Source: Candidatus Providencia siddallii (GTDB lineage: Bacteria; Pseudomonadota; Gammaproteobacteria; Enterobacterales; Enterobacteriaceae). From it: a stretch of 64,000 nt of DNA. The stretch covers positions 124,001 to 188,000 of the forward strand of contig CVRF01000003.1 in the NCBI GenBank assembly GCA_001457715.1, in the 5' to 3' direction. Position 1 is the stretch's first letter. Each line of letters begins with the position of its first letter. A program made the position numbers and the translations under genes. Shown here in pieces: positions 14,394 to 60,822 of the stretch. The notes under the pieces are model-generated. The model did not search any database, was not told the origin of the DNA, and saw only the letters and a program-made list of their open reading frames with translations.

Positions 14394-15365
14394 CTAACTC
14401 TCCCATATTAATTTTAAATTATCTAATTTTTGAATAGGAATATTGCATCCTGGCCACGAACGTAATAATTGCGTTTTAATTAACGAAATAGTATCTAACC
14501 CAGGTGTAACACCTGGAGTCAACCAATAAGATATACGAGATAACTGTGTTAGTCCAAAACTACTTTCAAATGATGAACTAATTATAGATTGCAGTCCAAT
14601 AAAACGTGATTTTTCTATTAAAAATTGACAATAAGCTAAACTACCCATTAACATTGGTTTTATTATAATAGCGGAAACTTTATGTTGTTTTTTAACTATA
14701 AAATTTGCTTCACGAACACTTTCATCCCACGCTATATTAATACAAGTCTCTTTTGCAAATTCTAAAGATTCTTCAGTAGTTCTGCATGGTTCTTCAATAA
14801 AATCAATACGATTTCTATTATCTAAATCTATACATTTAGCAAAAAGTTTCGCTTGAAATAACGTCCATTTTCGATTAATATCGAGGCGTACTTTTAATTT
14901 TGGTACTAATTTAAACAAAGAGTTTATATTTAAACCATCTTTTATTATATTATTAACACCTAGTTTAAATTTTACAATTTTTTTAAATTTTATTAAATTT
15001 AAATTTAAAATTAAATAATCTATATCACTTCTATCGTATAAATGTGCTTTACAATAATCAGTTTGTACAGGAAGAACTTTGTTTAATTCTAATAATGCAC
15101 AACTACATCCAAAAGACACTGACGGGAAATAACTATATGAAATCTTACCTTTGTTTAACCATTCAATTAATTTAATAGTAGTCTCAACTATAGCCTCTTC
15201 TAATGTCTCTTTACTAAATCCAAATAAAGGAGAAACCTCCCCTCATCCCTCATTATCACCATTTTGTAAATAAATTAATAAACCATCACGAGTTTTTAAT
15301 TTTTGATCAAAAAAAATAACTCCATGTTTTATTGGTATACTAAATAAATATATTTTAGCTTTCAT
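14394..15365 (-). pseudogene. menC: o-Succinylbenzoate synthase gene with in-frame UGA at codon 41
   Basis: MenC is the enolase-superfamily dehydratase that makes o-succinylbenzoate from SHCHC. The frame from ATG 15365 to TAG 14394 encodes 323 codons and aligns throughout with E. coli MenC: LKTRDGL, then EG-UGA-GEVSPLFGFSKETLEE, RLDINRKWT, DFIEEPCR, AWDES, AIIIKPMLMGSL and SSSFESSFGLTQL. The only lesion is TGA at 15243-15245, exactly where E. coli has Trp in EGWGE. Without readthrough only a late GTG start (15119) is left, losing about 82 residues. The ATG overlaps the menB stop (TAATG). It may be a young pseudogene, or it may be expressed by UGA readthrough; the pathway neighbours are intact. 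Confidence 0.85.
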
Positions 15366-19632: not shown

Positions 19633-21078
19633 TCAGTCAATAACTATTGAAGCAATAGAAATAATTGGGTTAGGCCACACTCCAAAAACTAAAACAATAA
19701 CAGAACAAATTAATATAAAAAAAATATTTAATTTTTGTTTTTTATCATCATAAAAATCATTATTTTTTTCTTTATACATATAAAGAACTGAAATAAAACG
19801 TAAATAATTATACATTCCAATTATATTTCCAATTATTAAAAAATATATAAACCACCAAATTTTTGAATTCATAACAGAAAATATCACATAAAATTTACCA
19901 ATAAAACCCAATGTGATTGGTATCCCAGCTAACGAAAATACCATAATACTCATAGCTATACTCAGCATTGGTTCATGCCAAAATAATCCATAAAATATAT
20001 TTATATTATTAACATCATTATTATATTTTCGATTTGAAATCGTACTTATAATACCAAATATACCTAAACTTGAGAACATATAACTTATTAAATAAATAGC
20101 AACAGCTAATTGTGAAATAGATTTATCAGATTTTGCAGAAACTAAAGCAACCAACAAATAACCCATATTAGAAATTGATGAATAAGCAAACAAACGTTTT
20201 AAATTCTTTTGCGTAAAAGCTAATATATTTCCAAATAAAATTGATGCAATTGCAATAACTGAAAACATTATTAAAACAATTTCATTATTAATTAATACTT
20301 TTGTAAAAAAACGGAATAAAACTGCAAAAATACCTATTTTACAACCAGTTAACAAAAACGATGAAACCGAATCTGGAGCTCCTTGATAAACATCTGGAGT
20401 CCATAAATGAAAAGGGAAAAATGATAATTTAATACATAAACCTATAATCAGCATACCTAAACCAATTGATAATAGATATGTGTGTGTATTATTATTAAAA
20501 ATTATTTCAGCAATATGTTCAAAATTTAAATCACCTAATTCAGCATACAATAAAGCAATACCAAATAATAAAAATGAAGTTGATAAAGACATCAACATAT
20601 ATTTAATTCCAGCTTCTAAAGAACGTTTATCATCAAAAGAATAAACCACTAAACCCAATAATGGTAAGGTTATTAATTCGATGCCAATAAACATAGAAAC
20701 CAAATGATTTGACATAGAAAGCAAAATGCCACCTGTTGTGGCAATCATAATTAATAAATAAAATTCATCTTTATTATCATCAATTTTTTTTAACCAATAA
20801 TAAGCAAAAATAATACTCCATATACCGGAAATAACAACTAATGCACTATAAAATAAAGAAAACCCATCTACACGAATCAGAAAAGTGACATCAACTGTAT
20901 AATTAGAAACAGCTAATATAACTATTAAAAATAACGAACAAATAAAACCAGATAAAGCTATACTAATACTGGTAATATGATTACGATGAAATGCAATAGA
21001 TAACATTATAATTACTGAAGTAAAACCAGTTATTATTAAAGGTGATATTAAAATTAAATCATGAAATGTTATAGTCAT
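19633..21078 (-). CDS. nuoN: NADH-quinone oxidoreductase subunit N
   Basis: An antiporter-like membrane subunit of complex I, one of the three proton-channel proteins. The 481 residues (E. coli about 485) contain around 14 hydrophobic segments. The conserved FIGIELITLPLLGLV, the SFFPFHLWTPDVYQGAPDSVSSFL lysine/histidine region and the RLFAYSSISNMGYLL helix are all present. It is the last gene of the nuo operon. The stop is TGA. nuoM ends 28 bp upstream. Confidence 0.96.
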   Translation of the reverse strand: MTITFHDLILISPLIITGFTSVIIMLSIAFHRNHITSISIALSGFICSLFLIVILAVSNYTVDVTFLIRVDGFSLFYSALVVISGIWSIIFAYYWLKKIDDNKDEFYLLIMIATTGGILLSMSNHLVSMFIGIELITLPLLGLVVYSFDDKRSLEAGIKYMLMSLSTSFLLFGIALLYAELGDLNFEHIAEIIFNNNTHTYLLSIGLGMLIIGLCIKLSFFPFHLWTPDVYQGAPDSVSSFLLTGCKIGIFAVLFRFFTKVLINNEIVLIMFSVIAIASILFGNILAFTQKNLKRLFAYSSISNMGYLLVALVSAKSDKSISQLAVAIYLISYMFSSLGIFGIISTISNRKYNNDVNNINIFYGLFWHEPMLSIAMSIMVFSLAGIPITLGFIGKFYVIFSVMNSKIWWFIYFLIIGNIIGMYNYLRFISVLYMYKEKNNDFYDDKKQKLNIFFILICSVIVLVFGVWPNPIISIASIVID

Positions 21079-22618: not shown

Positions 22619-24469
22619 TTAAGTTAAAAGTAATAGAATAAAAATTATTATTGCAGTTAACTCTAATGAAACAAGATACCAACGAATTCGTCCATTTTCA
22701 CTAATCAAAAACAGTTTATTTAAAAAATATAGTAAATAAGCTAATAAATTAATTAATGAATTAATAGGATCTTTTTTTAATAACCATGCGACAACTTTAA
22801 ATGGTTTAATAAAAACTACATTATATAGCCAATTCAAATCCCAAAAATAACACCACCAATTTAATAAAAAACGACTAAAGTTTGTTTTTTTTATTATTTT
22901 TAATATTGGACGTTTATATAAATATAAAAATATAGTAACAAATAAACCTACAATTGAAAAACTAGAAGAAATTATTTCTAAAAACAACTTTTTATCTTCT
23001 AAAAATTTTATTAAAAATATTTCATCTAATGATTTATAAAATAATGCACCTATAAACGTCGAAAAAATAGCTAAAATAATTAATGGTCCTATATGAGTAA
23101 TTTCTTTTATTTCATAAGAATATTTTTTATTTTTTTCTTTACCATGAAACATAACAAAAATCATACGAAAAATATAAATTGTTGTGATTAAAACACCAAA
23201 CATACTTGCCAATAAAAACAGATTTTGTCCATTAAATTGTATTCCCGATAAAATTGCACTTTTACTATAAAAACCTGCAGTAAATAAAGGTAAAGCTGAT
23301 AACGAGCTCCCCCCAATTAACATCATTATGTATATAAATATATTTTGTTTATATAAACAATCGATTTTAAAAATATCTTGTTCATTATTACATAAAATAA
23401 TTAATGAACCTGCTGATAAAAATAATAAAGTTTTAAAAAACGCATGAACCATCAAATGAAAAATAGCTGCATCCCATGCTTGAACACCAATCGCTAAAAA
23501 CATATAACCAATTTGACTCATAGTAGAATAAGCAAGAATACGTTTTATATTACTCTGTAATAAAGCTGAAAAACTACCAATTAACAATGTTATTGTACCA
23601 ATTATTCTAATAAGATATAAAATGTCTGGATTTAATAAAAATAAACAATGAGTTCTACTTATTAAGTAAACACCAGCAGTAACCATCGTCGCGGAATGAA
23701 TCAAAGCAGAAACTGGTGTAGGAGCAACCATTGCATCTGTAAGCCACGTTTGCAATGGAAATTGAGCTGATTTACCAATTGAAGCAAATAAAAGCATTAA
23801 AGTCCCTAAAGTAATTATACTTGAATCTTTAATATTTTTTTGATCAATAAAAGTTGCTATATCAGCGAAATTTAAAGTACCAATTTCATTCCATAAAACA
23901 AGCATACCAATCAAAAGAAAAAGATCACTAATTCTAGTTATTAAAAATATTTTTATTGCTTTTTTACCATTATCTGAATTTCTATAATAGAAATTAATTA
24001 ATAAATAACTACATAAACCAACTCCTTCCCAACCAAAATACATTGAGATCATGTTATTACATAAAACTAAAACAAGCATACATGAAATAAAAAGATTAGT
24101 ATAAGCAAAATAACGTGAATAACCCTCTTCTCCACGCATATACCAAGAAGAATAAACATGAATAAGAAAACCTATACCAGTAACTATACATGACATAATT
24201 AAAGAAAGTTTATCTAATAATAAAATAAATGGAATTTTAAAATTATTTATTGAAATACAAGTCCATAACGTTTGTTTATATATATATCCAGTTATTGTAG
24301 ATTTATGCAATAAAAATTCGTAACCTGCATTAATTACAGTAATAAATGATAAAAATACAGATCCTACACCGATAAAAGCAGAAATATTTTCTGATAATCT
24401 CCCACAAGAAAATGATAAAAATAAAAATCCTATTAAAGGAAACAAAATAGTTAAATAAAGTAAATTCAT
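22619..24469 (-). CDS. nuoL: NADH-quinone oxidoreductase subunit L
   Basis: The distal antiporter-like subunit with the long lateral helix. The 616 residues (E. coli 613) include the conserved Glu in [52 protein letters not shown]-type channel residues, and [18 protein letters not shown]. The C-terminal segment corresponding to helix HL and the final anchor is retained. The ATG overlaps the nuoK stop (ATGA), indicating translational coupling. Confidence 0.97.
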
Positions 24470-24768
24470 TCAGACATCTCGTTTAAATTATCAACATCAA
24501 GATTTTTATAATAACGATGTAATCGCAATAATAACGCCAAACCAATGCTAGCTTCAACAGCAGCTAGTGTTATTATTAAAATATACATAATTTGTCCATC
24601 TGGCTGTCCCCAAAAACTACCAACTACAACAAAAGCTAATGCAGTTGAATTAATAGTAATTTCCAGACCTAATAACATAAAAAATAAATTACGACGAACA
24701 ATAATGCAATTTAATCCAATCACAAACAAAATAGCTGATAAAATTAAACCATGCTGAAGAGGTATCAT
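24466..24768 (-). CDS. nuoK: NADH-quinone oxidoreductase subunit K
   Basis: A small three-helix membrane subunit of 100 residues, the exact family size. The two buried glutamates are seen in [15 protein letters not shown] and [19 protein letters not shown]. It ends in TGA overlapping the nuoL ATG by four bases. It starts with ATG 33 bp after the nuoJ stop. Confidence 0.97.
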
Positions 24769-25871: not shown

Positions 25872-26858
25872 TTAACAACCTTTATTAGAAAAATATAAAA
25901 TTACTGCTGCAGTACATAATAAATTTAATAATGTTAGAGGAAGACATATTTTCCAACCAAATAACATTACTTGATCATAACGAGGCCGAGGTAATGAAGC
26001 TCTAATTAGAATAAACATAACTATAAAAAAACTAGTTTTAATAAAAAACCATAAAAATGGTGGTAATAAAGGCCCACGCCATCCACCAAAAAAAAGTGTA
26101 ACTATTAATGATGATACTGTAATAATACTAATATATTCACCAATAAAAAATAAACTAAACTTCATTCCAGAATATTCTATATGATAACCGTCTGCAATTT
26201 CTTGTTCAGACTCAGGTTGATCAAACGGATGACGATGACATACTGCAATAGCGGCTATTATAAACGTTATAAAACCAAAAAATTGCGGAATGATATTCCA
26301 AATATCTTTTTGAGAATTTACAATATCAATCAAATTAAATGATCTAGCTCTTGCAATTACTCCTGTTAATGATAAACCTAAAAATACTTCATAACTTATA
26401 CTTTGCGCAACTGCACGAAGAGCACCCAATAATGAATATTTATTGTTACTGGCCCATCCAGCAAATAAAATAGCATAAACTGCTATACCAGCCATCATTA
26501 AAAAAAATAAAATTCCGATGTTTAAATCTATAACATATAATGTTGAACTAATAGGTATTATAGCAAACACAAAATACAATGAACAAAATGAAATAACTGG
26601 AGCTAGTACAAATATCATTTTATCGGCAAAAATAGGAATCCAATCTTCTTTAAAAAGCATTTTTAACATATCTGCTATAACTTGCCCTAATCCAAACAAT
26701 CCTACACGATTTGGACCATAACGATTTTGAAAAAGACCTAAAATACGACGCTCTATAAAACTCATGTATGCTGCGCATAACATAACTATTAACAAGATTA
26801 CAACTGGTTTTAATACAGAAGATAATATGTTTATTATATTTAAAAAATTCAAATTCAC
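25872..26858 (-). CDS. nuoH: NADH-quinone oxidoreductase subunit H
   Basis: The membrane subunit forming the quinone-binding chamber floor with eight helices. The 328 residues (E. coli 325) show [23 protein letters not shown], the acidic loop [20 protein letters not shown]-type sequence and the C-terminal [13 protein letters not shown]. The start is GTG at 26858, overlapping the nuoG stop (GTGA). Confidence 0.97.
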
Positions 26859-29581
26859 TCTACTTTCCTTATTGAATTTTTAATTAAAATACCTGTCATT
26901 GAAGCAAAAAATCCATACATACCTAAAGGTAACCCAATTTGTCCAGTAGATAGTTTATCACTTAAGCGTACATTTAAGTAAAGTAATTGATTATCATAAA
27001 GTAATTCAATTTTAGATTCCGCGGTTAAATCAAGTAATAAAGCATCATTATTATTAAATACAATATATGGTTTTGGCATACATTGTTTAACTATATCTGA
27101 ACGTTGCGACATTTCTTCAGAACCAAATAAGTGATAATATGGAACTATAATCCATTGATTTTTTTTTGATTGATATTTTTTTGGAACTTCAGTAAAAAAA
27201 GACATTTTACTTTTTTTAGAATCAAACAAGCGAATTCCAGGATCACCAAACAATAAATAACCACCGACTTTATTTTGAAATTTATTCCATGATTGAACAG
27301 AATTCCAACCAGGTACCCATGCAAATGGAATTTGCTTAGTTAACGATGCTTTAGAAATATTACCTTCCATTGAAAAAACAAAAGGTGAATCAAAATCTTG
27401 TGGTTGAACAGCTTCGTGAATAGATTTATTCGATAATATTGCTGTACGACCGCTATAACGATGAGATTCTCTAGCTATTTTTTGACCACGAATACGAAAA
27501 GATGATTTTGGAGATGCATCTATAATTTTTGCAAATTGAGGCATATTTATGGCGCAATCAGAGATGATATTATCAAATTTAATTTCACCTAAATCGATTT
27601 TATTTAATTCGGAATTAATTAAACATAACCATCTCCAACTTTCATTTATAAAATTATTATTATCATAAAAACTTGGTTTAAAAACTTTAAAAAAACGTTG
27701 AGCACGACCTTCTTGACTAATTAATGTTCCATTAGATTCAGCAAACGTTGCTGCTGGAAAACCTATAGTCGATTTATCCATTAAATTTGTATAATAATGA
27801 TCAATAACAATTAAATACTTTAACTTTGTAATTACAGTATCTACAACACTAACTTTGCTATTACAGTAGAGATCATTTTCAACAACAATTGCTGCATCAA
27901 CTTCATCTAATTCAATTTTATTAAACGCTCTATCGATTGATTTTGCATTCATCATAGCTAAACCAAAACTATTTGCATTAGGAGATAAATAAGATAATGC
28001 AACATTTACACCTTTATCTTTTAATGCAAAAGCAATATTTGCTGCTGCTTTAATAAGCCAATCACTAGCGCTATGAGTTCCGCTTATAATTAATACTTTT
28101 TTTGACTCAATAAAAATTTTAGCTATAATGTCAATTTTATTTTTTAAACTAATTGATAAATCATTAACAATAGGGGATTTTTTATTAATCGCATGCGCAA
28201 TAGCAAAACCAAAACGAGCTTGATCAACTACTGGTGCATAATAACTTAAAAAAGCGATATCCTCCAAACATGTTTTATCAACATTAGTAACAATTAATAC
28301 GTTTTTATTATGAATATTAATATCAGTAATTGTTGTAAAAATATAATTATTTGTTTTTTCTAAAATAATTGCTTCTTTAGATTCAAGTTTAACAGCTCTT
28401 CTAACAGATAACGCCATACGAGCACTTGTTTGTGTTAAGTCTTCACCTAAAACCAATATCGCATTATATTCTTCTATTTCACGCAACATTGGTGTATAAA
28501 CACCTCCATGTTGTAAAATATTCAAAATTAATGTTAATCTAAGTTGTTCTTCTTCTGAAATTCCAGAATAAAAATTTTCTTCACCTACTAATAAACGCAA
28601 CATATAATTAGTTTCAATACTTGCACGCGAAGAACCTATACCAATTATTTTTTTTGCTTTATTAAAAATTTGAATAGTTTTTTTAATAGCTTTGTCATTA
28701 GACATTACTTCCTTAATATTATTCGAACTAAAAAAAGCTTGACGTGGACGATCTTCACAATTTATGTATCCACACCCAAAACGTCCACGATCACAAAGAA
28801 AATAACGATTTACAGATCCATTATAACGATTTTCTATTTTACAAATTTTACCATTTCTCTCACCTATAATTATATTACAACCAATACTACATTGATGACA
28901 AATACTAGGCGCAAATTGTATATCCCATTTACGATTATAGTGTTCAGAATATGTTTTATCTGTAAAAACGCCTGTTGGACAAACCTCTATTAAATTACCT
29001 GAAAATTCATTTTTTAACATTCCATGTTCAACACGTCCAAAATAAACATTATCATGAATACCATATACATATAAATCAGTTCCACCTGCATAATTTTTAT
29101 AAAAATTAATACAACGATAACAAGCAATACAACGATTCATTTCATGATTAATAAATGGTCCTAAATTCTGATTAATATGTGTACGTTTATTAAAACGATA
29201 ATTACGTTTATAATGACCTGTCATTACAGTCATATCTTGTAAATGACAATTTCCACCTTCATCACATACTAAACAATCATGCGGATGATTAATCATTAAA
29301 CATTCAATAACTGTTTTACGAAATTCTTTTGTTTCTTCATCATTAATAGATATACAAAGTCCATCTCTTACCTGCGTCATGCAAGACATAATTATGTACC
29401 CACATACATCACCTACATTTTTATATTCCTTAACTGCGCATTGACGACATGATCCAATACTACCTAAAGCAGGATGCCAACAAAAATAAGGAATATCTAA
29501 ACCTAATGACAAACAGGCATGTAATAAATTTTCATAATTATTTACATAAAATTTTCTATTATCCACATATATTACAGCCAT
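26855..29581 (-). CDS. nuoG: NADH-quinone oxidoreductase subunit G
   Basis: The large iron-sulphur subunit, 908 residues as in E. coli. Binding sites appear in order. The N-terminal 2Fe-2S ligands are in [21 protein letters not shown]5 is in [15 protein letters not shown] and N4 in [10 protein letters not shown] plus CPTGVF. The extra N7-type set CHQCSIGC with a downstream Cys (FLCDRG) is present, followed by the molybdopterin-type domain without cofactor. The stop is TGA, overlapping the GTG of nuoH. It is 124 bp downstream of nuoF, the widest gap but one (nuoB-nuoCD is 102 bp) inside the operon. Confidence 0.97.
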
Positions 29582-29705: not shown

Positions 29706-31001
29706 TTATAAAATATTCACTTCAAATTCATTACGAAAATATTTAATAGCACTTTTTAACGGCTCAATTGCACCCGGTGCATGTGCACAAAAAGTTTTAC
29801 CAGAACCTAAAAACCAACATAATTTATCAAGAGTTTTTATATCTTCTAAACTACCTTTATTTTCTTTTAATGCTTGTAAAATTTTTACAATCCAAGGTAA
29901 ACCATCACGACACGGTGTACACCAACCACAAGATTCACGTGAAAAAAAAGTCTCTAAATTATGCATTAAAGAAACCATATTGATTTCATTATCTATAGCA
30001 ATCGATAAAGCTGTACCTAAACGACTACCAACTTTAGCTATATTTTTGAAATCCATTGGAACATCTAGATGATTATTCGTTAAAAAACCAGTACTCGCCC
30101 CTCCTGGCATCCATGCTTTTAATTTTAAACCATCACGCATACCACCAGCGTAATTTTCCAATATTTCACGAGCTATTGTACCAAATGGTAATTCCCATAA
30201 ACCAGGTTTTTTTACTCGACCTGAAAAACCCATAAGCTTAGTACCAGTATCTTCACTTTTTCCTAAACTTAATCCGATATACCATTTATACCCATGCTCT
30301 AAAATAGCAGGAATATTACAAATAGTTTCAACGTTATTAACACACGTTGGTTTACCCCAAACACCTAATGTTGCTGGAAATGGTGGTTTATGTCGAGGAT
30401 TAGCTCTTTTTCCCTCAAGTGAATTAATTAATGCTGTTTCTTCACCGCAAATATATCTCCCAATACCAGTATGTATAAATAATTCAAAATCGAAACCAGA
30501 ACCAAGTATATTTTTACCTAACAAACCATTTGATTTTATTTCATTAATAGCAAAACGTATAATTTTAATAGCATTAACATATTCACCACGAATAAAAATA
30601 TAACCACGATAAGCTTTTAATGCATAAGCGCTAATAATCATACCTTCTATTAATAAATGAGGTAATTGTTCCATTAACAAGCGATCTTTATATGCCCCAG
30701 GCTCCATTTCATCTGCGTTACACAAAAAATATCGCGTTTTTATATTTTCATCTTTTGGCATTAAATTCCATTTTAATCCAGTTAAAAAACCAGCTCCACC
30801 TCGACCCTTAAGACCTGAATTTATAATAAGATTTATAACATCCTCCGGCGTCATGTTTTTCAATGCATATTTAATACCATTATATCCACTTTTATCAATG
30901 TATTCCTTTAAATAAACAGGTTTACTATCACAACGCATTCGCCACGTAAGAGGGTGTGTTTCCTGATTACTTATAGACGATTTTATATAAGAATTAATCA
31001 T
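29706..31001 (-). CDS. nuoF: NADH-quinone oxidoreductase subunit F (NADH/FMN site)
   Basis: This subunit oxidises NADH with FMN and holds cluster N3. The glycine-rich [13 protein letters not shown] binds [18 protein letters not shown] binds FMN, and [11 protein letters not shown] with the later FCAHAPGA provide the four Cys ligands. The 431 residues are slightly short of E. coli (445) at the N-terminus. The ATG overlaps the nuoE TGA by four bases. Confidence 0.97.
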
Positions 31002-31489
31002 GAATACAGTTCCAAAATTCGTTTTACATCATGAGAATCAACATAATTATAAATATCATCATCGATCATGATTGTTGGACCTTTATCACAGTTACCTAAA
31101 CAACATATATGTAACAAAGTAAAACGATTATCAGCTGTCGTTTGTCCTGGGGTAATTTTAAGTTGATTAATTATTTCAAATTCAACATTTTTATATCCAG
31201 TAATAAAACAAACAATGCTATCACAATATCGAATAATGTGCTTACCTACAGGTTTACGAAAAATTTGACTATAAAATGTTGATACACCTTCAACTTCACT
31301 AACTGGGATTTTTAAAATTTTTGCTACAGCAAAAATTATATTATCTTCAATCCAACCACGTTTTTTTTGCAAAATTTTCAATGTACCGATTAATGCCGCT
31401 TGTTGATTTTCATAACAATGTTTTTCTTTTTCTATTTCTTCAAGTTCTATATCAGTTAATATAGTACAAGAATTTTTTTGTTGATTCAT
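30998..31489 (-). CDS. nuoE: NADH-quinone oxidoreductase subunit E
   Basis: A thioredoxin-fold subunit carrying the 2Fe-2S cluster N1a. The ligands are CDSIVC and CLGNCDKGP. The N-terminal helical bundle ([15 protein letters not shown]) and [17 protein letters not shown] are typical. 163 residues, family length. It lies 30 bp after nuoCD, with TGA overlapping nuoF. Confidence 0.96.
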
Positions 31490-44153: not shown

Positions 44154-44942
44154 TCACGGTAAAAATACATGTCCTATTGTATTTTGAGGAATATTAAATA
44201 TTTTTGGATATTCAACATTAAATAAATATAAACCATCAGGTTTAGCAGTAATAGCTGCTTTATTTCTATCTTTAGATTCAAGTAATTCACTAATCCAATC
44301 AATATTTTTTTTATAACAACCAATCTCCAATAAACACCCGATAATATTTCTTACCATACGATAAACAAATGCATTAGCTTTTATATCAACTATGATATAA
44401 TCACCTTGCCTATCTACACTAATATTAAAAACATTACGCCAAGGTGTTTTAGATTGACATTGAGTAGATCTAAATGAAGTGAAATCTTTTTCACCTACTA
44501 AATCTTGAGCAGCTCTATGCATTATTTTTTCATTTAATGGATAATAAAAATTAGTCACCTTATTAAATGAAATTGCAGATCTATAATATTTATTTAAAAT
44601 AATATAACTATATCTTCTAGATATAGCACTACAACGTGCATGAAAGTTTTTATTCACAATTTTACACCAACGAACAGCTATATCACATGGCAAATTTACA
44701 TTTGTACCCATAACCCAAGATGATTCTTTACGTTTCGATGTAGTTTCAAAATGCACAACTTGCCCTACCGCATGAACACCAGCATCAGTGCGTCCCGCAC
44801 AAAAAATAGTAATTTTTTCATTAGAAACTCTTGATATAGCTTCTTCAAGACAACCTTGTATAGTTTTAACACCTTTTTGATGTTGCCAACCAGAATATTG
44901 ACTACCATTATATTCTACACCTAAAGCTATTCGATATAACAT
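44154..44942 (-). CDS. truA: tRNA pseudouridine(38-40) synthase TruA
   Basis: TruA modifies uridines 38 to 40 in the anticodon stem of many tRNAs. The catalytic Asp is residue 53 in [37 protein letters not shown] and [17 protein letters not shown] are also conserved. 262 residues against 270 in E. coli. It ends with TGA followed by a second in-frame TGA. dedA, which in E. coli separates it from accD, is missing; 271 bp of AT-rich DNA remains. Confidence 0.96.
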
Positions 44943-52400: not shown

Positions 52401-52853
52401 TTAATAATAATATTTAATATTATTATCATTATTTTTGGTTGTTCTTTTAAACCAACTTTCAAGTATTATAGCAGCCGCTATAGAATCTATTTTTCTTTTA
52501 TTTAAACATTGATACCATTTATTTTCAAATAAAATAGATCTTGCTTCTACTGTAGAAAGACGCTCATCATGTAATTCGACTTTAATATTAAAGCGAATAT
52601 TAATTTTATTAGCAAAAATACGCGCTTTAGCAGTCACAAATTGCTCTGTTCCATCCATATTAAAAGGAAGACCAACAACAACTAACTTTGGATACCATTC
52701 TTTAAAAAGATTTTCTATTTGTAACCAAAACAATACACTATTCGTTTTTAATGATGCTAAAGGATTAGCTGTAGCAGTAATTTCTTGCCCAACAGCAACA
52801 CCTATGTTTTTAGTACCAAAATCAAAAGCTAAAAAAATATCTGATAACATCAT
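52401..52853 (-). CDS. yqgF: Putative pre-16S rRNA nuclease YqgF (RuvX)
   Basis: An RNase H-fold protein implicated in 5' maturation of 16S rRNA. Signature stretches are [31 protein letters not shown] and [16 protein letters not shown], with the late aspartate in [14 protein letters not shown]. 150 residues, slightly longer than E. coli (138). Two ATGs in tandem (52853, 52850) are possible starts; the first overlaps the yqgE stop. Confidence 0.94.
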
Positions 52854-53413
52854 GCATGTCCAGCTTGCATTGAAATAGTATAAATATTAACACCTAATAA
52901 TTTAGCCGCAGCCTGCCATCGTTCATTAATTGGTGTATTAAAAATTAATTGTGTATCTGCCTCAACTGTTAACCAACAATTTTCCATTATCTCTTTTTCC
53001 AACTGACCTGATTCCCAACTTGAATAACCTAATGTAACTAAAGTATTTATAGGATGTTGATCACTTCCTAATAACTCTAAAATATCTTTTGATGTAGTAA
53101 CCATAACTTCGTCATTTAAATGTAAACTAGAAGCAAAACCAGGAACAGGAGTATGTAAAATAAAACCATGTTCTTCAGCTACCGGACCACCAGCAATCAC
53201 AGGTTTTTCTAAATTACTAATATTAATATTATATGAAATTCTAATTTCAAGTTTTTTTAGCATAGTACTAACAGAAAAATTTTCAATTGATTTATTTATA
53301 ACTAATCCCATAGCTCCTTTTTCATTATGTTTACATACATAAACGACTGATTGCTCAAAATACGGATCAGTCAATAACGGCATTGCTATAAGAAAATGGT
53401 TTTGTAGATTCAA
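52850..53413 (-). CDS. yqgE: UPF0301 (AlgH-like) protein YqgE
   Basis: A conserved cytosolic protein of unknown function that always accompanies yqgF. The family pattern is complete: [68 protein letters not shown] and the C-terminal QAGHA as in E. coli. 187 residues. The TGA stop overlaps the first yqgF ATG, indicating coupled translation. It lies 95 bp after gshB. Confidence 0.95.
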
Positions 53414-56756: not shown

Positions 56757-56972
56757 ATGCCAGTTATAAAAGTTCGTGAAAATGAACCATTCGATGTTGC
56801 TTTAAGACGTTTTAAACGTGCTTGTGAAAAAGCAGGGATTTTAGCTGAAATACGTAGACGTGAATTCTATGAAAAACCAACAACTAAAAGAAAACGAGCT
56901 AAAGCATCTGCTATTGAACGACATGCTAAAAAACTAGCACGTGAAACCGCTCGCCGTGTACGACTTTACTAG
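56757..56972 (+). CDS. rpsU: 30S ribosomal protein S21
   Basis: S21 is a small basic protein of the 30S platform that aids initiation-site selection. The 71 residues ([18 protein letters not shown], then [10 protein letters not shown], with an Arg/Lys-rich tail ending RRVRLY) are nearly identical to E. coli. The stop is TAG, a rare choice here. First gene of the macromolecular synthesis operon; dnaG follows after 101 bp. Confidence 0.98.
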
Positions 56973-57073: not shown

Positions 57074-58834
57074 ATGTCTTGACAAATTCCAAATTCATTT
57101 ATTAATGAATTATTATCTAAAACAGATATAATTGAGTTAATCAATACAAAAATACCGTTAAAAAAATATGGTAAAAATCATCGTGCTTTTTGTCCTTTTC
57201 ATATAGAAAAAACACCGTCATTTTATATAAATGATGAAAAACAATTTTATCATTGTTTTGGTTGCGGTGCACACGGAAACGCTATAGATTTTTTAATAAA
57301 TTATGATAAACTTAACTTTGTTGAAGCGATTGAAGAACTATCAAAATTACATGGATTTAATCAAATATATAAAAAAGTAAATTTAACAAAAAATATATTA
57401 CAACAAAGAGTATATCAGTATAATCTTATGAAAGAAATTAACCATTTTTATATCGATATGCTAAATAACAAATCAACCAATAAAGCTCAAATGTACTTAA
57501 ATAATCGTGGTTTAAACACAGAAATAATTAATCGCTTTTCTATTGGATTCGCACCATCTGACTGGAATAGTCTTTTTAAATATTTAACAATAAAAAATAA
57601 AAATAACAAACAAATTAGTGAAACAGGGATGTTTATTATAAATAATAATGGTCAAACATACGATCGTTTTAGAGAACGAATAATGTTCCCAATTAAAGAT
57701 AGAAATGGAAACATAATTGCGTTCGGCGGTAGATCATTAAATGATACATTACCAAAATATATAAACTCACCAGAAACTGAAATTTTTCACAAAAGCCGGC
57801 AATTATTTGGATTATATGAAGCAATAAAAAACAACAATAAACCAACTAAACTATTAGTAGTTGAAGGATATATCGACGTAATAACACTTGCACAATATAA
57901 TATTAATTATGCAGTTTCATCACTAGGTACATCTACAACTTCTAATCATATTCAATTATTATTTCGTTTTACAGATACTGTAATCTATTGTTATGATGGA
58001 GATTACGCAGGAAAGAAAGCAGCTTGGCGTACACTAGAGATATCTATCTCATTTTTAACTAATACACGTCAAATAAATTTTATTTTTTTACCTGACGGTG
58101 AAGATCCAGATTCATTAATACGAAAAGAAGGTAAATTATTATTCGAAAAACGAATTGTAAACGCAAAAACACTTTCAGAATTTTTATTTAACTCAATACT
58201 ACTAAAAGTAGACTTAAAAACACAAGAAGGAAAAATAAAATTTTATAATCTTACTATACCTTTAATTAAACAAATACCAAATGAAATTTTACAGCTTTAT
58301 ATGGTTAAAAAGTTAGGGCAATTTATTGGTATACCTGATATTGACCAAATCATCGCGATGATAAATAAAGACACAAATAAAAAAATAAATTACAGAATTC
58401 CACAAATAAAACCAACAACAATGAGGATATTAATATCATTAATAATACAATATCCCTCTTTTTCAAAATTTGTTCCATCTTTAAAAGAAATTATTTATAT
58501 AAAAACACCTGGTATCTATTTATTTAAAGAAATAGTCGATTATTGTCACTCTTCACCTAAAATTACAACTGGACAATTATTAGAGCGATATAGAAACAAT
58601 AAATTTTCAAAACTACTTGAAAAATTAGTAATTTGGAACGATATAAACGAAAAAGAGATAGCAAAAAAAACTTTTTTAGATGCATTAAATCATTTATTTA
58701 ATAAAGCAATAGATGAACGATTTAATTATTTAATTGCAAAAGAACGAATACAAAAACTTACAACTGAAGAACGAAAAGAAGTTTATTTACTTACTATTTC
58801 ACAAACAAAATTAAATAAAAAAAATAATGTATAA
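57074..58834 (+). CDS. dnaG: DNA primase with in-frame UGA at codon 3
   Basis: DnaG makes RNA primers for replication. The frame from ATG 57074 to TAA 58834 is 586 codons (E. coli 581), interrupted only by TGA at 57080-57082. After it the family sequence runs on unbroken: IPNSFINELLSKTDI, the zinc finger CPFH...CFGC, the RNA-polymerase core, Toprim motifs VVEGYIDVI and YDGDYAGKKAA, and a C-terminal DnaB-binding helicase-interaction domain. The first ATG after the TGA (57428) would delete the zinc finger, and no GTG or TTG lies before it. So expression needs UGA readthrough or a rare start such as ATT at codon 5. E. coli has Gly at this position. There is no Shine-Dalgarno. As an essential gene it is unlikely to be dead. 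Confidence 0.9.
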
Positions 58835-58968
58835 AACATAAAAATAATTTCTTATTAAAAATTATACATAATAAAAATACAGAAAATATTATTTTAAATT
58901 AAACGAATGCTTTATATCTTTATGTGTTTACTAAATAAAATTAACCTAAAATTAAAAGTGTGGATAAC

Positions 58969-60822
58969 ATGGAGCAAAATCAGCAGTCTCAGCTTAAGAT
59001 ATTAGTAACTAAAGGGAAAGAACAAGGATACTTAACCTATGCTGAAGTTAACGACCATTTGCCTGATGATATAATTGATTCAGACCAAATTGAAGATATA
59101 ATACAAATTATCAATAATATGGGAATCCAGGTAATGGAAAAAGCACCAGATGCTGATGACTTAATTTTAACTGAAAATATTTCAGGACATTGTGATGATG
59201 CAGCTGAAGCAGCCGCACAAGTGCTTTCTAGTGTCGAAAACGAAATAGGCAGAACAACGGATCCTATACGTATGTATATGCGTGAAATGGGCACTGTTGA
59301 ACTTCTTACAAGAGAAGGAGAAATTGATATAGCAAAACGTATTGAAGACGGAATTAATCAAGTTCAATGCGCTGTTGCAGAATACCCTGAAACCATAAAT
59401 TATCTTCTTGAGCAATATGAACAAATCGGATCCGGAGAAAATAAATTATCAGACCTAATTATAGGATTTGTCGATATTAATGCAGATGAAGTTATAACAT
59501 CAAATATAAATATAGAAAACAATGAATTATTACAAAAAGAAGAAATTGAAGAAGACGAAGATGATGACAATGAAAACGATAGAGATGATTGTGATGATGA
59601 TCAAGATAACAGTATAGACCCTGAATTAGCATATTTAAAGTTTTCTAATCTACGTGAACAACATAAAAAAACTCGATACAATATTAAAAAATATGGTCGC
59701 AAAGACATTAGAACAATTTCTGAAATTAAACAACTTTCAGAACTATTTAAAGAATTTCGGTTAGTTCCAAAACAGTTTGATTATTTAGTAAATAATATGC
59801 GTGAAATGATTGATAGAATTCGTTTTCAAGAACGAATTATTATAAAACTATGTGTTGAATGTTGTAAAATGCCAAAAAAAAATTTCATGACGTTATTTAC
59901 TAATAACGAAACTAATGAAAATTGGTTGACAACCGCAAAATCAATGAATAAATCATGGTCTGAAAAATTATTTAAAGTTGAAAATGAAATCTTAAAATCT
60001 ATTTATAATTTGCGTAAAATTGAAGAAAAAATTGGATTACCAATCGAACAAGTAAAAGACATTAATCGTCGAATGTCTATTGGTGAAGCAAAAGCTAAAC
60101 GAGCTAAAAAAGAAATGGTTGAAGCAAATCTAAGATTGGTTATTTCTATCGCAAAAAAATACACCAACCGCGGATTGCAATTTCTTGATCTAATTCAGGA
60201 AGGTAATATAGGTTTAATGAAAGCAGTTGATAAATTCGAATATCGACGTGGTTATAAATTTTCCACTTATGCCACTTGGTGGATTAGACAAGCCATCACA
60301 CGATCAGTAGCTGATCAAGCTCGTACAATTCGTATTCCTGTCCATATGATTGAAACAATTAATAAACTAAACCGTATTTCTCGTCAAATGTTACAAGAAA
60401 TAGGTCGAGAACCATCTCCAGAAGAATTAGCTGAACGAATGTTAATTCCAGAAGAAAAAATCAGGAAAGTGTTAAAAATTGCTAAAGAACCTATTTCTAT
60501 GGAAACACCAATAGGTGATAATGAAGATTCCCATTTAGGTGATTTTATTGAGGATACTTCTTTAGAGCTGCCTATCGATTCAGCTACAACAGAAAGTTTA
60601 CGTGCTGTTACACATGAAGTTTTATCAGGATTAACAGCTAGAGAAGCAAAAGTCCTACGTATGCGTTTTGGTATTGATATGAATACTGATCACACACTTG
60701 AAGAAGTAGGGAAACAGTTTGATGTCACACGTGAACGAATAAGACAAATTGAAGCAAAAGCACTACGTAAGCTACGTCATCCAAGCAGATCAGAGGTACT
60801 TAGAAGTTTTCTTGATGAATAA
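58969..60822 (+). CDS. rpoD: RNA polymerase primary sigma factor (sigma-70)
   Basis: The housekeeping sigma factor. ATG 58969 ([24 protein letters not shown] in pieces) matches E. coli and has TGGAT just upstream; a GTG at 58960 is in frame. Region 1.1 is followed by region 1.2 ([16 protein letters not shown]). The non-conserved insert keeps an acidic run ([17 protein letters not shown]). Regions 2 ([17 protein letters not shown]), 3 and 4 ([19 protein letters not shown]) are nearly unchanged. 617 residues. Third gene of the operon, 134 bp after dnaG. Confidence 0.98.

Follow-up and report, generated by a model that had tools for sequence, protein, structure and literature searches.

The codon UGA most probably has two meanings in the lineage of Candidatus Providencia siddallii: we put at about 0.8 the probability that the genes compared here record an early stage of stop-to-tryptophan reassignment, in which UGA would be read by the near-cognate tRNA-Trp(CCA) at some sites whilst still serving as a stop codon elsewhere. 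The window, the stretch of 64,000 nucleotides of this genome that was analysed, contains dnaG and menC, each interrupted by a single in-frame UGA. The UGA in dnaG is more than a chance event, given the menC UGA in the same window and an excess of UGA at tryptophan codons in a sister genome, G001, which is available as one contig and is the single further genus member found in the 60 genomes searched. A preliminary description of this DNA had treated the dnaG codon as a matter of that gene, and so missed a change that extends across the lineage, with UGA in place of tryptophan codons in the sister genome and also in lolA and menC here.

The dnaG gene, encoding DNA primase, occupies 57074..58834 on the forward strand. 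It lies between two open reading frames of the same strand that we take to be rpsU upstream (56757..56972, named from its sequence and from the order rpsU-dnaG-rpoD) and rpoD downstream (58960..60822). From 57074 the sequence reads ATG TCT TGA CAA ATT CCA and the frame then stays open until the TAA at 58832-58834; the UGA previously noticed at codon 3 is indeed present in frame, at 57080..57082, and is followed by C. Downstream of it, the Pfam domains Zn_ribbon_DnaG, DNAG_N and Toprim and the DnaB-binding domain all lie in one frame, and the gene scores 470 bits against the NCBIfam dnaG model TIGR01391, which has a cut-off of 284, bearing out the claim of an unbroken primase. It had also been claimed that no alternative start could rescue the gene. 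This was confirmed, as there is no in-frame ATG, GTG or TTG between the UGA and an ATG at 57428, and a start at the latter would delete the zinc-binding domain. Initiation at a rare start codon beyond the UGA, such as the ATT at codon 5, would leave the UGA untranslated; the conserved part of DnaG begins at I5-P6, and rare ATT starts exist, for example in infC. However, the ATG at 57074 coincides with the start position of relatives, and an ATT start would leave menC, lolA and the sister genome unexplained, making it highly improbable. By eye, no Shine-Dalgarno-like sequence precedes either the ATT or the ATG.

Codon 3 was compared among 64 dnaG loci, the first being that of this genome. The count uses the 30 relatives with an M-x-x-x-I-P N-terminus and sets aside 33 loci in which the N-terminus is built differently. 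Glycine is found in 28 of the 30, glutamate in one and arginine in one, with TGA in none; E. coli presumably also has glycine here. The suggested origin of the UGA from a glycine codon by a G-to-T change fits these relatives. The match to TIGR01391 begins at residue 5 and the UGA site lies outside the conserved domains, in keeping with the earlier view that the position is non-catalytic. Because it is a glycine and not a tryptophan position, alignment is no proof of tryptophan at this site; the residue at position 3 would nevertheless be tryptophan if the codon is read as elsewhere in the lineage, giving a proposed N-terminus of M-S-W-Q-I-P.

The wider pattern emerges from a collinear block, defined by tRNA landmarks, in which 340 kb of this genome was compared with 304 kb of the sister genome (40% of each). 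With the frames of this genome as queries, tryptophan stands opposite 42 of 59 TGA columns in the sister genome, and opposite 39 of the 52 that have good flanks, as against 1 of 12 TAG and 1 of 57 TAA columns. The remaining 13 well-flanked TGA columns face leucine (six), arginine (two), cysteine (two), serine, glycine and lysine, and some of them appear by eye to be leaders or antisense frames. Counted as paired tryptophan sites (this genome/sister genome), there are 636 TGG/TGG, 39 TGG/TGA and no TGA/TGG, so that the sister genome has UGA at 39 of 675 well-flanked tryptophan codons that are UGG here. The 43 segments with such sites are spread over 57 to 328 kb of the sister genome. The paired sites, together with the intact read-through proteins described below, indicate that UGA is a tryptophan codon at approximately 6% of the sampled tryptophan sites of the sister genome. 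A reverse search, with frames of the sister genome as queries, is blind to sites at which both genomes have TGA; it placed 0 of the nine TGA columns in this genome opposite tryptophan. Thus no private TGG-to-TGA change was seen here, and it is the sister genome that carries the statistical case.

Loss of tryptophan codons by G-to-A change should yield TAG as readily as TGA, so neither gene decay nor sequencing error explains this distribution. Genome reduction, and an extra one-base insertion in the sister menC, would suit the idea that the interrupted genes are decaying symbiont pseudogenes in which UGA has no sense meaning, but with TGA, and not TAG or TAA, concentrated at tryptophan codons, and with the rplD, glnS, lpxB, lnt, prfB and dnaG frames otherwise intact, it is extremely improbable. 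Ten proteins picked from the 43 segments were read with UGA as tryptophan. Nine scored above their NCBIfam cut-offs, namely those of lnt, glnS, nuoCD, rplD (ribosomal protein L4), trhP, lpxB, lolA, rodA/mrdB and bioA; the tenth matched no family at E 1e-20. The sister dnaG has glycine at codon 3 and a single UGA of its own at a tryptophan position (GYAPFG-UGA-NNLL, compared with GFAPSDWNSLF here, where the codon is UGG). One UGA is likewise found at a tryptophan position in the sister prfB, the gene for release factor 2 (RF2; contig C1, 617507-618544), where EQPYI-UGA-KK aligns with EQPNIWNKH here; synthesis of RF2 thus depends on reading the codon that RF2 terminates. Parallels to the dnaG site, in which UGA replaces a residue other than tryptophan, occur in the sister genome at a serine in purF (TIGR01134, 479 bits) and at a glycine in a frame that we take to be SpoT/RelA-like. 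The sister trmB, asd and ybeY frames carry UGA where this genome has cysteine or leucine; on the assumption that E. coli has tryptophan there, these are probably further UGA-tryptophan sites, outside the counts above.

In the sampled 40% of this genome there are only three clear sense UGAs, in dnaG, menC and lolA, and those of menC and lolA are at tryptophan positions. The menC gene (o-succinylbenzoate synthase) lies at 14394..15365 on the reverse strand and, read through its one UGA, scores 364 bits against NF003473 (cut-off 236). The UGA, at 15243..15245 on the same strand and followed by G, interrupts the protein as NEG-UGA-GEVSPLFGFS, a site at which tryptophan is found in 11 of 19 distinct loci from outside the genus that cover it. 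The sister menC (contig C1, near 208614) has UGA at the same tryptophan codon and a one-base insertion directly after it, which is either a mark of a pseudogene or an assembly slip; in view of this insertion beside the UGA, menC could be decaying. In lolA, which lies outside the window, a tryptophan codon is UGA in both genomes and is followed by C in both. The residue is tryptophan in 16 of 28 loci from outside the genus, including all 15 from the same family, and lolA is the firmest case in this genome. As the codon recurs in a second assembly, from a species with 64% primase identity to this one, it is no sequencing error. A wrong base call or misassembly at 57080-57082, with dnaG otherwise normal and the code standard, would require one substitution only, in an assembly of four contigs that is 96.4% complete. 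It is made very unlikely by the same type of codon in menC and lolA, the latter repeated in the separate assembly of another species, and by the many tryptophan codons that are UGA in the sister genome. Of the three accounts originally offered for dnaG, reading of UGA by tRNA-Trp is the one that has gained support, and the ATT start and the base-call error have become less economical.

Among 21 well-flanked rows in which TGA in both genomes stands opposite tryptophan, lolA alone was counted as a coding tryptophan site. The others were left out as 16S or 23S rRNA, tRNA genes, gene ends (those of genes that we take to be lpxD and fabZ among them), leaders or unassignable frames; the last include those at 109034 and 114927 on contig C3 of this genome, which are possibly antisense. 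At 302895 on the same contig there is a UGA near a C-terminus, with arginine in the sister genome and a conserved-looking FKNS downstream, which may be a slight shortening of the protein or another read-through site. A megablast search returned no plasmid match.

UGA remains in use as a stop codon in both genomes. The first stop at orthologous gene ends is TAA in 206, TAG in 19 and TGA in 16 cases here (n=241), and TAA in 214, TAG in 15 and TGA in 14 cases in the sister genome (n=243), with weak alignment ends accounting for some of these terminal UGAs, clearly so in one sister row. Within the window, on the reverse strand, yqgE/algH (52850..53413), nuoE (30998..31489) and nuoN (19633..21078) end in UGA-U, nuoG (26855..29581) and nuoK (24466..24768) end in UGA-A, and truA (44154..44942) ends in a tandem UGA UGA with the next in-frame TAA or TAG 18 codons on. 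The yqgE protein ends exactly where its family model does (187/187), and the nuoK stop overlaps the start of the following gene, presumably nuoL, as ATGA. In a sister gene that we take to be rpsK, UGA stands at the conserved C-terminus and the next in-frame stop is 41 codons further. At many terminal UGAs a TAA or TAG comes only a few codons later, as might be expected if UGA had been completely reassigned to tryptophan (code 4) and the apparent gene ends were the beginnings of short C-terminal extensions. The rpsK, yqgE and nuoK ends argue against this, as do an RF2 gene kept with its motifs and the base after UGA, which is often U at gene ends and hardly ever U at sense codons, and complete reassignment is accordingly an unlikely reading.

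The base at the +4 position separates the two uses of UGA. In the sister genome, the base that follows the 39 sense UGAs is A in 30 cases, G in five, C in three and U in one, compared with A in 204, U in 186, G in 143 and C in 103 after tryptophan TGG codons (p = 3e-8 for A and 6e-5 for U). At gene ends the base after UGA is U in 8 of 14 cases there and 11 of 16 here, and sense and terminal UGAs of the sister genome differ in the use of U with p = 2.7e-5. Mutation bias is no explanation, since the proportion of two-fold purine codons ending in A in the sister genome varies only between 0.91 and 0.96 depending on the next base. At the same 39 sites this genome, with TGG, already has A as the next base in 23 and U in two; thus the changes to UGA seem to have been accepted in contexts that permitted them. 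The three sense UGAs of this genome are followed by C (dnaG, lolA) or G (menC), none by U, and show no preference for A. The preliminary description had proposed that UGA-C is a weak terminator, with which the lolA codon agrees in both genomes, but the dominant sense context in the sister genome is UGA-A. Tentatively, a stable four-base rule is possible, under which UGA-A, with some UGA-G and UGA-C, would mean tryptophan and UGA-U stop, as settled by competition between tRNA-Trp(CCA) and RF2 without release factor 3 (RF3), so that context would keep both meanings in place of a rapid shift from stop to tryptophan. If this rule holds, dnaG would be under a read-through brake at codon 3. The dual use of UGA could be transitional or could follow a context rule that is stable; both fit the two genomes.

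In each genome 33 tRNAs were found, all read by ARAGORN, among which there is a single tRNA-Trp, with anticodon CCA. None of the 33 in either genome has a UCA anticodon, which rules out selenocysteine insertion and a UCA suppressor tRNA. The tRNA-Trp suppressor changes A9C and G24A and a 4-bp anticodon stem were not found in either genome; the stem has five pairs in both, including a U28-G42 pair here. The D-loop has one extra base in both species, and as it is lengthened also in the small genomes G007 and G011, this is probably no explanation by itself. PrmC, MiaA and two RluA-family synthases are above cut-off in both genomes, so their loss was rejected as a cause. UGA-suppressor mutations are known in 16S h34 (C1054 region) and in 23S rRNA near 1093; in both genomes the sequences at these two places are identical to the E. 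coli motifs used for the search, and an rRNA suppressor change there was likewise rejected.

RF2 is encoded by a prfB gene above cut-off in both genomes, with the SPF and GGQ motifs kept. A cysteine after SPFDS is found only in the two genus members among 30 loci, at a position that is variable in relatives. The prfB frameshift motif CTTTGAC is missing here and in the sister genome, G009, G014 and G016, and is present in 24 of the 25 other readable loci, one locus being unreadable; L205 is a further locus in which it was not found. Autoregulation of RF2 may have disappeared earlier than the code change or independently of it. For prfC, the gene for RF3, no match reaches the cut-off of 467, the best being 170 bits here and 177 in the sister genome, in frames of approximately 720 codons that are probably elongation factor G. 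By contrast, prfC is above cut-off in all three relatives tested (G009, G014 and G016). The absence from this genome, weaker on its own given an assembly that is 96.4% complete, agrees with that from the one-contig sister genome. In E. coli, the loss of RF3 raises read-through, with UGA as the weak point, according to parts of PMC5373646; this work, together with the presence and absence of prfC, suggests a contribution of RF3 loss to the change.

The samples from the two genomes have a G+C content of 24% and 23%. In a genome of approximately 24% G+C with few UGA stops, leaky termination, probably aided by the loss of RF3, would permit UGA as a tryptophan codon where the next base disfavours release, so that UGA would be admitted first in permissive contexts. 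Charged tRNA-Trp(CCA) would read it as a near-cognate codon in competition with RF2, and RF2 would still terminate at UGA in favourable contexts such as UGA-U. In dnaG, a change of GGA to TGA at the third residue, which is not critical, would be tolerated if tryptophan were inserted often enough to make the little primase that a cell needs.

The UGA stop-to-tryptophan code (NCBI table 4) is attributed, in parts of PMC8629427, to the Mycoplasmatales/Entomoplasmatales, Hodgkinia, Nasuia, Zinderia and Stammera. The present lineage resembles these in having UGA at conserved tryptophan positions, a reduced genome and, like most of them, low G+C, but RF2 is kept, UGA ends genes, a minority of tryptophan codons are UGA and the anticodon is CCA. 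UGA at conserved tryptophan positions in many genes describes the sister genome, and here applies to lolA and menC only. In neither genome has UGA ceased to be a stop or RF2 been lost, as it has in Mycoplasma and Hodgkinia, and both have anticodon CCA on a five-pair stem in place of anticodon UCA or a 4-bp stem. In Hodgkinia, RF2 is lost and the anticodon is UCA (parts of PMC2704378). Passages of PMC13092985 give Stammera tRNA-Trp a 5-bp stem and CCA, so that the UCA or 4-bp trait is not universal, and describe JAKLIH01 as lacking both RF2 and terminal UGA.

A similar case is the gammaproteobacterial symbiont XS4, in which, in the parts of PMC12213064 considered, UGA is tryptophan, tRNA-Trp(CCA) is the only such tRNA and the RF2 gene is kept. 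However, XS4 belongs to a different lineage and has a 4-bp anticodon stem, unlike the five pairs of both genomes here, and those who described it expect its RF2 to be specific for UAA, whereas UGA gene ends persist here. In the recoding model proposed for Hodgkinia (parts of PMC2704378), the first step is relaxed reading by tRNA-Trp(CCA), before RF2 loss and anticodon change. Ambiguous UGA, a CCA anticodon and the presence of RF2 correspond to that step. That model was derived from a lineage in which recoding is complete, whereas two related species here appear to be in that state, and RF3 loss is an added candidate. Leaky reading of UGA by the normal tRNA-Trp of E. coli, favoured by A at +4 (Engelberg-Kulka 1981, as cited in a part of PMC5289835), involves the same tRNA, the same codon and, in the sister genome, the same +4 preference. 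In E. coli this is a low-level error, whereas in the present lineage the codon has become fixed within essential genes.

Among open-licence papers, represented mostly by titles and the openings of abstracts, no description of UGA use in this lineage was found, nor any paper about such a UGA change in the Aschnera and Arsenophonus literature; the terms UGA, codon and genetic code are absent from the main text of the Aschnera genome paper (PMC10841577). So sparse a case could be missed by the Codetta filter, described in part of PMC13092985 as requiring either a UCA tRNA or a minimum of 100 Pfam columns. Annotation of such genomes under table 11 would lead to false pseudogenes. The published stop-to-tryptophan cases considered here have mostly been found complete, and the order of events, namely tRNA relaxation, RF2 loss, anticodon change and replacement of stops, has been argued from models. 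That order could be tested directly with two related species that use UGA for tryptophan as well as for stop while keeping RF2 and the original tRNA, one with UGA at approximately 0.3% of sampled tryptophan codons and the other with UGA at 6%.
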